Assembly: GCF_023806565.1 (NCBI RefSeq)
Contig: NZ_JAMTDV010000062.1
Location: 25,198-89,197, forward strand
Reading direction: 5' to 3'
DNA: 64,000 nt
DNA from: Accumulibacter sp.
GTDB lineage: Bacteria; Pseudomonadota; Gammaproteobacteria; Burkholderiales; Rhodocyclaceae
Part shown: in pieces, positions 6,122 to 40,185 of the stretch
Numbering within the stretch: the first letter of the stretch is position 1
How the letters are laid out: each line of letters starts with the position of its first letter
Translations under genes and position numbers: made by a program
The notes under the pieces: model-generated
Databases searched by the model: none
Told to the model about the DNA's origin: nothing
What the model saw: the letters and a program-made list of their open reading frames with translations, nothing else

Positions 6122-8198
6122 CGCAAGCGTGGCGCTGCGCGTGATCTTCGACCGTCTCGGTCAGCGACAACTGGCGGGTCCGGGGCTGATCCTGCTGATC
6201 CTGGCGATGATGGTTCTGCCATTGCCGCCGTTTGTCCTGGATCTGTTCTTCACCTTCAACATTGCAATTTCGGTGATCGTCATGCTGGTGGCGATGAGCG
6301 TGATGAAGCCGCTCGACTTTTCCGTCTTTCCCACCGTCCTGCTGGTGACGACCCTCTTGCGTCTGTCGCTGAACGTGGCTTCGACGCGGGTCGTCCTGCT
6401 CGAAGGGCATACCGGTCCGGGCGCGGCCGGGCGCGTGATCGAAGCCTTCGGACATTTCCTGGTCGGCGGCAACTATGTGGTCGGCCTGGTAGTGTTCACG
6501 ATTCTCGTCGTCATCAATTTCGTGGTCATCACCAAGGGTGCGGGACGGGTGGCCGAGGTGGCTGCGCGCTTCACCCTCGACGGCATGCCGGGCAAACAGA
6601 TGGCAATCGATGCCGATCTCAATGCCGGCCTGATCGGTGAGGAGGAGGCGCGCAAGCGCCGCGCCGGCATTGCCCAGGAAGCCGACTTTTTTGGTTCGAT
6701 GGACGGCGCCTCGAAGTTCGTTCGCGGTGACGCGGTGGCCGGCATCCTGATCATGTTGATCAATGTTTTTGGCGGCCTGTTCGTCGGGGTTCTGCAACAC
6801 GATCTGGATCTCGGCACGGCCGCGCGCACCTATACCCTGCTGACGATTGGCGATGGCTTGGTGGCGCAGATTCCGGCACTGATCATTTCGATCGCCGCGG
6901 GTATGGTGGTGACGCGCGTCGGCGATGATCAGGACGTCTCGCAGCAGTTCGTCGCACAGCTTTTCGACAACCCCAAGCTGCTGTTCCTGACTGCCGGGAT
7001 CATCGGTCTGCTGGGTCTGATCCCCGGCATGCCCAATTTCGTCTTTCTGCTGTTGGCCAGCATGTTCGCGGTGATGGCCGCGCGACTCGAAAAGCGGCAG
7101 GGCACCGTTGCGCCGGTGCCGGTGACGGTTGCGCCGTCGGTCGCGCGCGAAACCCAGGAGGCCAGTTGGAGCGATGTCACGCCGCTCGACGTGCTCGGCC
7201 TCGAAGTCGGCTATCGTCTGATCCCGCTGGTCGACAAATCGCAGGACGGTGAATTGCTGCGCCGGATCCGCGGCATCCGCAAGAAGTTCGCGCAGGAAGT
7301 GGGATTCCTCGTGTCGCCCGTGCACATTCGTGACAATCTGGAACTGAAACCGAACGCTTACAAGATCGTCCTCAAGGGCGTCGAGATCGGCGACGGCGAG
7401 GCATTTCCCGGAAGCCTGCTGGCGATCAATCCGGGACGGGTGGCCGGCGATCTCCCCGGCACGGCCACCAAGGACCCCGCTTTCGGGCTGCCGGCGGTGT
7501 GGATCGACCCGGCCCTGCGCGAGCAGGCGCAGGCCTACGGCTATACGGTGGTCGATGCCAGTACGGTAGTCGCGACACACCTCAATCACCTGATCCTGAC
7601 GCACGCTGCCGAACTGCTGGGGCGTCAGGAGACGCAGGCGCTGCTCGATCACGTGGCCAAGGACATGCCGAAACTCGTCGAAGATCTGGTGCCCAAGGCC
7701 CTGCCCCTCGGCGTCGTGCAAAAAGTGTTGCGCAACCTGCTCGATGAGGGCGTGCACCTGCGCGACATGCGCACGGTGATCGAGACCCTGGCCGACGGCG
7801 CACCACGCTCGCAGGACCCCGAGATATTGACCGCACAGGTGCGGACCAGTCTCGGGCGCGCGATCGTCCAGGAACTCTTTCCGGGCAACACCGAGATGCA
7901 GGTGATGTCGCTCGAGCCACGGCTCGAGCGCCTCCTGCTGCAGGCGGTTGCCGGCGGTGGCGATGGCGCCGGCATCGAACCGGGCCTGGCGGATACGCTG
8001 CTGCGTGAGGCGGTCGCGGCGGCGCAGCGTCAGGAAGCGGTCGGATCGCCGATGGTCCTGCTGGTTCCGGGGACCTTGCGCACGCTCCTGTCGCGCTTCC
8101 TGCGTCGCAGCATTTCCCAGTTGAAGGTCCTGGCGCACGCGGAAGTGCCTGAAAGCAGGACGATCAAGGTGACCTCCATCATTGGACAAAGAGCATGA
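6114..8198 (+). CDS. flhA: Flagellar export gate protein FlhA
   Basis: FlhA forms the nonameric ring of the type III export gate and uses its cytoplasmic domain to dock chaperone-substrate complexes. The 694-residue protein has a hydrophobic N-terminal half with about eight membrane segments. The conserved family block is visible (RVAEVAARFTLDGMPGKQM, then IDADLNAGLI). A long soluble C-terminal domain starts near residue 330. The ATG at 6114 gives the standard N terminus and overlaps the flhB stop by eight bases; an upstream in-frame start at 6045 would lie deep inside flhB and is not favoured. The stop overlaps the flhF start (ATGA). Confidence 0.96.
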   Translation: MADASVALRVIFDRLGQRQLAGPGLILLILAMMVLPLPPFVLDLFFTFNIAISVIVMLVAMSVMKPLDFSVFPTVLLVTTLLRLSLNVASTRVVLLEGHTGPGAAGRVIEAFGHFLVGGNYVVGLVVFTILVVINFVVITKGAGRVAEVAARFTLDGMPGKQMAIDADLNAGLIGEEEARKRRAGIAQEADFFGSMDGASKFVRGDAVAGILIMLINVFGGLFVGVLQHDLDLGTAARTYTLLTIGDGLVAQIPALIISIAAGMVVTRVGDDQDVSQQFVAQLFDNPKLLFLTAGIIGLLGLIPGMPNFVFLLLASMFAVMAARLEKRQGTVAPVPVTVAPSVARETQEASWSDVTPLDVLGLEVGYRLIPLVDKSQDGELLRRIRGIRKKFAQEVGFLVSPVHIRDNLELKPNAYKIVLKGVEIGDGEAFPGSLLAINPGRVAGDLPGTATKDPAFGLPAVWIDPALREQAQAYGYTVVDASTVVATHLNHLILTHAAELLGRQETQALLDHVAKDMPKLVEDLVPKALPLGVVQKVLRNLLDEGVHLRDMRTVIETLADGAPRSQDPEILTAQVRTSLGRAIVQELFPGNTEMQVMSLEPRLERLLLQAVAGGGDGAGIEPGLADTLLREAVAAAQRQEAVGSPMVLLVPGTLRTLLSRFLRRSISQLKVLAHAEVPESRTIKVTSIIGQRA

Positions 8199-39297: not shown

Positions 39298-39624
39298 ATG
39301 GATACCAAGGGTATTGACCAGATGTTGAGCATGTTGCAAGCAAGTTCGCTGGCAGCGGCCGGCGGTCGCCCCGATGAGGCGCAGACCACGTCGGCGGCCG
39401 GGGTGGACTTTGCGCAGGTGCTGCAGACTTCAATCGCCCAAGTCAGTCAGACGCAGCAAAGGGCGGAGGCGATGGCGGCAAGTTTTGCCGGCGGCAACAG
39501 TAACGAGAATCTGCACGAGGTGATGATCGAGCTGCAGAAGGCGAACATATCCTTTCAGGAAATGATTCAAGTGCGCAACAAACTCGTCTCAGCGTATCAC
39601 GACGTGATGAACATGCAGGTCTGA
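39298..39624 (+). CDS. fliE: Flagellar MS-ring/rod junction protein FliE
   Basis: FliE joins the MS ring to the rod. The 108-residue product has a disordered N terminus and the conserved C-terminal half containing NSNENLHEVMIELQKANISF followed by QEMIQVRNKLVSAYHDVMNM. The ATG at 39298 is chosen for the family length and is preceded by GGAAAGGAAAAAATCGT. In this genome it is separate from fliF, which is transcribed the other way about 2.7 kb upstream; it has its own sigma-54 promoter. Confidence 0.94.
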   Translation: MDTKGIDQMLSMLQASSLAAAGGRPDEAQTTSAAGVDFAQVLQTSIAQVSQTQQRAEAMAASFAGGNSNENLHEVMIELQKANISFQEMIQVRNKLVSAYHDVMNMQV

Positions 39625-39658
39625 ATCTATCTCGCGCTACAACGTATGTGGCGCAGAC

Positions 39659-39687
39659 TTGTATTTGTGGCCAGCGGCTCGCATAAT
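39659..39687 (+). promoter_or_regulatory. Candidate sigma-70 promoter of ssrA
   Basis: TTGTAT at 39659-39664 and CATAAT at 39682-39687 are separated by exactly 17 bases. The -10 box is good (five of six), while the -35 box keeps only TTG. The predicted start near 39693 agrees with where the acceptor piece of the tmRNA should begin. Confidence 0.55.
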
Positions 39688-39692
39688 GCTCG

Positions 39693-39923
39693 ACATGGTC
39701 GTAATTCCGGCAAGCCGGAAGCGTTCTGGACGCGGGTTCGATTCCCGCCACCTCCACCACTGCGGGGGTGTACTGGTTTCGACAGGGTGACAGATGGGGA
39801 GCAGGCGACCCGAAAGGCGACGGACGTAATCCGAGCAAATCCATAAACGCCAACGATGAGCGTTTCGCACTGGCCGCTTGAGGCCTGCTGAGGACGTAGC
39901 CGTCCGATAAACAGAATGGCTAT
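39693..39923 (+). ncRNA. ssrA: Circularly permuted two-piece tmRNA
   Basis: The normally 3' part of tmRNA comes first. A T stem GCGGG/CCCGC closes the loop TTCGATT (39732-39748). CACCTCC follows (39749-39755), then A and CCA ending at 39759. After four bases (39760-39763) the normally 5' part begins with GGGGGTG (39764-39770), then TACTGGTTTCGACAGGG, like the start of ordinary tmRNAs. GGGGGTG pairs with CACCTCC as a seven-base acceptor stem with one G-U pair. A hairpin (TTCCGG/CCGGAA around CAAG) lies in the acceptor piece. The encoded tag is ANDERFALAA. tmRNA rescues stalled ribosomes with SmpB. The outer ends (39693 and 39923) are estimates; the internal ends follow from the stem and the CCA. 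Confidence 0.93.
39849..39881 (+). CDS. tmRNA proteolysis-tag reading frame
   Basis: The resume codon is GCC at 39849, followed by codons for NDERFALAA and a TGA stop at 39879-39881. The encoded tag ANDERFALAA ends in the LAA degron recognised by ClpXP-type proteases. It is part of ssrA, not a free gene. Confidence 0.9.
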   Translation, partial: ANDERFALAA

Positions 39924-39947
39924 CGGTGGGGGCCCCGGCCCCCACCG
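39924..39947 (+). terminator. GC-rich hairpin after ssrA
   Basis: A perfect ten-base stem (CGGTGGGGGC with GCCCCCACCG) around the loop CCCG directly follows the tmRNA coding piece. Only three T residues follow (TCGTTTACC), so it is a moderate terminator or a processing structure. Confidence 0.55.
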
Positions 39948-40185
39948 TCGTTTACCCCGCTCTTTCCCCGGCGATGCGAGGGCAGCCGCCCCGCGAATCG
40001 TCGCTGGCGGCACGAGCAGGCAGTTTGCCAAGAAATCGTCGCGAGCAGGCCGCGATGCAAAGCGCGCGCGAACGACAAAACAGTGTGCACAGAGTGTGCG
40101 CAGGAAGGGGCGCGAAGGAGAAAAAGCGCAGAACGGCCGCGCCAAGCCTATCCACGAGCTCCGAGAGTTCCGACAGACCGTCGGG
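39948..40185. other. Intergenic stretch without recognisable gene
   Basis: No supported coding region, RNA or repeat is seen here. It lies between the hairpin after ssrA and the stop of the minus-strand gene at 40186. Frames open across it lack a ribosome-binding site and a family-like product. Confidence 0.5.

Follow-up and report, generated by a model that had tools for sequence, protein, structure and literature searches.

A circularly permuted tmRNA gene with a four-base spacer in Accumulibacter and two spacer classes among its Rhodocyclaceae relatives

Background

The tmRNA of Hodgkinia, an alphaproteobacterial symbiont, is encoded by a gene permuted in the same way as the one described here, and its coding and acceptor RNAs have been seen by small-RNA sequencing (PMC6581868). 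It differs in its 129-nt intervening sequence, which contains complementary stretches, and in the addition of CCA at its 3' ends (PMC6581868). Circularly permuted tRNA genes of algae and archaea likewise place the 3' half first, with a loop of 1-74 bp at the acceptor end, but the outer ends of these tRNAs are ligated into one chain, unlike those of a two-piece tmRNA (PMC3978253). The removal of an intervening sequence of just one base from a permuted archaeal tRNA is named there as a question whose answer will be intriguing (PMC3978253).

Two-piece tmRNA is also already known in phages, where ARAGORN suggested it for 53 of 133 unique tmRNAs (PMC9004378). In the consensus of the Rfam family RF01850 (beta_tmRNA), the acceptor piece ends in ACCc and is followed by a long intervening stretch. 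Here we examine a permuted tmRNA gene in a 64,000-nt stretch of Accumulibacter sp. DNA (the window), which resembles this consensus in the order of its pieces, its tRNA-like domain, its tag frame and its terminal hairpin but encodes CCA followed by only four bases. Our literature search found no report of spacer classes among such genes, although the likeliest places for one, Sharkady and Williams 2004 and Mao et al. 2009, were outside its reach.

Results

A permuted tmRNA gene with an eight-base acceptor loop

The Rfam covariance model RF01850 matched the window at 39645-39950 with 221.7 bits (gathering threshold 84, E 3.7e-71) across all 331 model positions, RF04321 matched at 39697-39881 with 162.2 bits, and ARAGORN called a permuted tmRNA with the tag ANDERFALAA at the same locus. 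These three results agree with the first-pass annotation, which had proposed a permuted two-piece tmRNA gene, and confirm that window 39645-39950 is a real circularly permuted tmRNA gene of the beta type. The tag frame is complete, as the annotation had also claimed, with an alanine resume codon and a stop (GCC...TGA), and the coordinates it gave for the mature ends, with the four bases CTGC between them, are correct. The features of the locus are as follows.

39659-39687, + strand: probable promoter, with TTGTAT at 39659-39664, a 17-base gap and CATAAT at 39682-39687, lying close to the UUGA and UAuAAU columns in the RF01850 alignment
39694-39759, + strand, 5' end approximate: acceptor piece (tRNA-like 3' half with encoded CCA), from the RF01850 and RF04321 alignments and the sequence
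39732-39748, + strand: T-arm GCGGG-TTCGATT-CCCGC, from sequence and fold
39749-39755, + strand: 3' strand of the acceptor stem, CACCTCC, from sequence and fold
39756, + strand: discriminator A (A73), from sequence
39757-39759, + strand: encoded CCA end, from sequence
39760-39763, + strand: four-base spacer CTGC, which maturation is expected to remove, from sequence and comparison with short-class genes
39764-39947, + strand, 3' end approximate: coding piece, from the RF01850 alignment
39764-39770, + strand: 5' strand of the acceptor stem, GGGGGTG, from sequence and fold, with the predicted RNase P site directly before 39764 (mature G1)
39849-39881, + strand: tag frame ANDERFALAA and stop, from ARAGORN and sequence
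39924-39947, + strand: terminal G+C hairpin, a probable terminator without a strong T run, from fold and the RF01850 terminal stem

The acceptor piece is encoded 5' of the coding piece, and the acceptor stem forms between the two through seven pairs, one of them G-U (CACCTCC with GGGGGTG). The mature ends of both pieces are predicted from this stem, and the mature RNA probably consists of two separate pieces. The long intervening stretch that extends the acceptor stem in RF01850 (a usual feature of the family, not a defining one) is absent from the window locus, which has an 8-nt loop instead. Folding of the 45-nt segment spanning the T-arm and acceptor stem recovered the predicted structure with ACCACUGC as the loop (z −2.5), in which CCA is single-stranded, as contact with RNase P through the RCCA motif would require. 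The stability of the whole 257-nt transcript was not unusual (z −0.8).

A strict sigma-70 scan of 39560-40060 found no promoter, and the promoter call thus rests on the RF01850 family model. The terminal hairpin at 39924-39947 was not detected by the terminator scan. The upstream neighbor of the tmRNA gene is fliE (PF02049).

The host genome and its processing genes

The host Accumulibacter genome (3.71 Mb in 139 contigs) contains a single RF01850 match. No standard tmRNA was found in it, the best RF00023 match (37.6 bits, cut-off 47) lying inside the permuted gene. Apart from the permuted gene, which stands in for the one-piece gene, no tmRNA (ssrA) gene was found in this genome; at 99.85% completeness by the tool's figure, a missed second copy is unlikely but possible. 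Genes for SmpB (PF01668, 193.8 bits), RNase P RNA (323.6 bits) and RNase PH (381.1 bits) are all present. RNase T scored below its model cut-off in the host, as it did in all but one of 14 control genomes, and because of this the trimming enzyme is uncertain.

RNase Z was also below its model cut-off in the host, where the best candidate was a partial metallo-hydrolase match of 60.1 bits against a cut-off of 292.95; the same model scored over the cut-off in 9 of the 14 controls. Among 199 Rhodocyclaceae genomes none exceeded it, and five gave near full-length matches of 240-268 bits, four of these being from genus g49, whose permuted tmRNA genes belong to the long class described below. A divergent RNase Z could escape the model cut-off. 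The idea that the short class tracks the presence of RNase Z was rejected, because a model that exceeds its cut-off in none of the 199 genomes separates nothing.

Two discrete spacer classes in Rhodocyclaceae

RF01850 scored over its cut-off in 75 of the 199 family genomes; 76 matches were fetched and 74 were parsed, with L074 (no T-arm) and L076 (a coding fragment) left out of the counts. These 74 genes form two classes, and no gene lies between them in length. The short class comprises 23 genes with an encoded CCA and exactly four further bases (CTGG in seven, CTGA in six, CAGG in six, CTGC in three and CGAC in one). Comparison with relatives thus makes the four-base spacer a fixed feature of the class (23 of 23) and extends what the first-pass annotation had seen at one locus. 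In the long class (51 genes), 26-51 nt follow A73 and usually form a hairpin that continues the acceptor stem. Bases 74-76 of its members are CCC in 22, CCT in 20 and CAG, CCG and CCA in three each, such that CCA is encoded in only L029, L039 and L063. The last of these is a mixed case, in which CCA is followed by 24 bases with no continuous stem extension.

Pairing between positions 74-83 of the long-class genes and the bases before G1 was found in 452 of 490 cells (49 distinct sequences). When partners were shuffled between long-class sequences the mean was 377 (sd 5.4, maximum 403 in 2000 shuffles, which ignore relatedness), and when the register was slid by one or two positions only 212-243 of 441-490 cells paired. 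Position 76 covaries, with T-A in 19, C-G in 17 and G-C in three of the 49 sequences and no pair in ten. The contiguous extension is shorter than five pairs in 14 of the 51 genes, where early mismatches interrupt it. Two long-class examples are predicted to form hairpins of about 20 pairs (−30.1 kcal/mol, z −8.1, and −34.1 kcal/mol, z −6.8); the fold of the window sequence is instead a stem of seven pairs closed by an 8-nt loop. C74 and C75 pair with G residues in the predicted loops of two other short-class genes (with spacers CTGG and CAGG), indicating that an open loop is not universal in the short class.

Short-class genes occur in 11 genera (g1, g7, g13, g15, g23, g32, g40, g41, g46, g53 and g66), the one from g7 being a single fragment at a contig end, and both classes are present in g23 and g46. 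The family as a whole is a mosaic of tmRNA forms, with RF00023 over its cut-off in 111 and RF01850 in 75 of the 199 genomes. Nine genera (g18, g20, g27, g29, g31, g44, g52, g59 and g62) contain both the standard and the permuted form, and genomes G125 and G012 each contain both, possibly by contamination.

Short spacers beyond the family survey

We scanned 84,980 species genomes with a pattern that allows 1-8 bases after CCA and obtained 48 loci, of which 45 passed a pairing test (L107, L113 and L117 failed). L124 was also dropped, since Rfam and ARAGORN see a tRNA there, and 44 loci were taken as permuted tmRNAs. Rfam was run on 11 of the 48 and upheld all seven of those that were kept (L078, L084, L092, L097, L102, L103 and L122). 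The count is a lower bound outside Rhodocyclaceae, as the pattern was not validated for alphaproteobacterial tmRNA, and also within the family, where L058 and its kin have a different D-loop and go unmatched. By sequence, 39 of the 44 are of the Rhodocyclaceae type, with spacers of four bases in 37, three in L078 and six in L084. When scan and family survey are pooled, 41 of 43 distinct Rhodocyclaceae-type short genes have four bases. The first spacer base is C in all 41 of these, the second is T in 34, A in six and G in one, the third is G in 35 and A in six, and the last is variable.

The other five scan loci carry spacers of 1-5 nt. L102, from a Rickettsiales MAG, is a permuted alpha-type tmRNA (1352-1676) with a single base between CCA and the 5' end, and L092, from a cyanobacterium, has a five-base spacer. 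So do L097 from Dyella sp. AtDHG13 (2045-2374), which encodes the tag GAKPIDANDNVYDQAIAA and is probably on a prophage because ERF and YqaJ recombination genes lie nearby, and L103 from Pseudogulbenkiania (6645-6946). L122 (226-533) is a permuted beta-type tmRNA with a four-base spacer on a contig labelled Mycobacteriaceae, a label that is likely due to mislabelling or misbinning. The tag of L097 is also found on the viral contig L186. Among the loci that failed the pairing test, L117 (5891-5973, Hydrogenophaga sp. MAG) is an 83-base RF00023 match of 68.5 bits directly after a tRNA-Ala gene and surrounded by many tRNA genes; it may be a tmRNA that lacks a tag region and belongs to a phage-like array of tRNA genes.

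In a survey of 300 genomes of the order, RF01850 scored over its cut-off in 13, seven of them in Rhodocyclaceae. Five of the six genes from outside the family encode CCA and have 33-36 bases after A73, and the sixth, L140, encodes an odd tag and has five bases in its spacer. L140 and L103 share an identical TCGAC spacer and acceptor stem, and their tags (ANFDIYDVQHVA; GNQPSNLQVMQQFDVPTPANGDQYLNVA) do not end in ALAA. A phylum-wide pattern search of 398 genomes matched the host genome alone, an uninformative result given the same lack of validation for alphaproteobacterial tmRNA.

The same 1-8 base pattern, run on IMG/VR contigs (predicted viruses), gave 64 loci. L178 and L211 were dropped on pairing. 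L202, which formed six pairs in the loose test, was rejected as a permuted tmRNA because it is a tRNA beside a standard tmRNA. The remaining 61 all encode CCA, have spacers of 3-8 nt and form seven of seven acceptor pairs; 52 are permuted tmRNAs by ARAGORN and the other nine match RF04321. Four is the commonest spacer length among 45 distinct viral genes (19 genes), with three bases in four genes, five in 12, six in five, seven in four and eight in one. The viral genes thus resemble the window gene in their encoded CCA and short spacer but have various acceptor stems and often different tags, and longer spacers also occur: at least 114 viral loci whose spacers are ten bases or longer remain after the loose pairing test, some with hairpin-like stretches and others with unpaired ones. 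Several of the viral permuted tmRNAs have long or unusual tags that end, for example, in LPMAA or LKVA and not in ALAA.

The short class on the tmRNA tree

We built a tree from the mature pieces with the spacer excluded (93 rows, 241 columns). Left out were L073 and L075 (both short), L074, L076, exact duplicates, the distant tmRNAs L092, L097, L102, L103 and L122, and the non-permuted L107, L113, L117 and L124. The coding piece of L090 contributes only 119 bases. In the first tree, 32 of 43 short rows formed one supported cluster. Holding the short class as one clade made the tree 74.8 log units worse, and a single origin was rejected by the AU test (p 0.000573), which was run after that first tree had been inspected. 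As it is not one clade, the short class has probably had more than one origin or episode of spread. Only two class changes are forced if strongly supported branches alone are counted, and because the tree is short and its bootstrap not settled we claim more than one event but give no number.

The clearest case of a separate switch is L041, whose spacer form is CCACTGG. In the acceptor piece L041 shares 98.4% identity with the long-class genes L031 and L037 and 96.9% with the short-class genes L057 and L110, and in the coding piece it shares 96.6% with long-class L042. It may also be the product of local recombination with a gene of the short class.

Discussion

The first-pass annotation had argued that so short a spacer limits the ways in which the precursor can be cut, which is reasonable but unproven. 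One RNase P cut and 3' trimming would be enough for it, and the long-class relatives provide the real contrast: in most of them a long hairpin caps the acceptor stem and CCA is not encoded. For the short-loop precursor we consider it probable, with some reserve, that RNase P makes a single cut before G39764, that exonucleases trim back to the encoded CCA, and that the two paired pieces work with SmpB. The acceptor stem of the transcript would be closed by eight bases, A-CCA-CUGC. Cleavage by RNase P before G39764 would give the coding piece its mature 5' end and free the acceptor piece with a four-base tail, and RNase PH or other 3' exonucleases would then trim CUGC; CCA addition would be unnecessary because CCA is encoded. 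Both pieces would stay paired and take part in trans-translation with SmpB. The order of cuts and the enzymes used are what we infer from the gene's layout and the host's gene content, and selection may have kept the spacer length at four.

Phage T4 tRNA dimers with spacers of fewer than five nucleotides are processed by RNase P, and RNase P RNA from B. subtilis can cut selected 7-bp helices that have been joined to a trailer or loop, at lower efficiency than it cuts pre-tRNA (PMC11143913). RNase P normally uses the RCCA motif and leader positions −8 to −3, the latter via its protein (PMC11143913). In the closed loop these two contacts could not both be made at once, because CCA itself would sit at −7 to −5. 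This conflict would be lifted if a 3' endonuclease of the tRNase Z or RNase BN type opened the loop just after CCA and RNase P then removed the four-base leader, and the pair RNase P and tRNase Z has been suggested for two-piece tmRNA (PMC3985003). We nevertheless regard this route as unlikely, as RNase Z is over its cut-off neither in the host, with its 60.1-bit partial match, nor in any of the 199 family genomes, and the five matches of 240-268 bits come mostly from long-class g49. The same absence is why RNase P followed by exonucleases is favoured. It is highly improbable that the precursor stays uncut and works as a single permuted chain, since its CCA end would lie inside a loop and could not be charged, and since an alphaproteobacterial permuted tmRNA has been seen as separate fragments with the connecting loop cleaved (PMC7335160).

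The length of the spacer itself calls for a similar weighing. Assembly can lose hairpins, and drafts or MAGs make up many of the genomes, but that the short spacer is an assembly error with a collapsed hairpin is scarcely credible: it occurs in the single-contig genomes G018, G158, G023 and G053, 41 distinct genes have four bases, and trimming a long form would not simply yield the short one, whose bases differ (CCACTGN). A length of four might instead reflect shared ancestry and be functionally meaningless, such that any short loop would do. Consistent with this are the supported cluster that holds most short rows, the small number of forced class changes, the three-base spacer of L078, the six-base spacer of L084, the spacers of 1-5 nt found in five further lineages, and the range of 3 to 8 nt in viruses. 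Against it stand the rejection of a one-clade short class (AU p 0.0006), the peak at four in the viral genes as well, and the 96-98% identity of L041 to long-class genes outside the spacer. The last of these means that a switch arrived once more at exactly four, unless recombination had copied the stretch. On balance we find mere shared ancestry doubtful as an explanation of the length.

In the long class a continuous hairpin hides the cut site, and a double-strand nuclease such as RNase III is therefore the natural guess for its opening; RNase III or E has been named for the 3' side of standard tmRNA (PMC3968760). There may thus be two opening routes, one in which a long hairpin (up to about 20 pairs) is opened by an RNase III-type nuclease and CCA is completed afterwards, and one in which a short loop is opened by RNase P alone with CCA encoded. 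Rhodocyclaceae lineages would have moved from the first to the second on more than one occasion, phages would have converged on the second, and four would be near the shortest spacer that RNase P readily cuts in a closed loop. We offer this wider scheme tentatively, as a possibility that falls short of probable.

Conclusions

What is added here is the existence of two discrete spacer classes, the fixed length of four in one of them and the repeated switch between classes. The four-base spacer is typical of one group of related bacteria and is not a one-off, and the presence of the short layout in viral sequences as well points to a simple way of cutting the RNA. Long-class family genes, with 26-51 nt after A73 that usually extend the stem through covarying pairs, can have mature pieces up to 96-98% identical to those of a short-class gene outside the spacer (L031 and L042 compared with L041). 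Sister genes with near-identical mature parts, one with an 8-nt loop and the other with a hairpin of about 20 pairs, amount to a natural experiment on the removal of intervening sequences. Because at least one short-class member, from Dechloromonas sp. H13, bears the title of a strain rather than that of a MAG, this class may be testable in culture.
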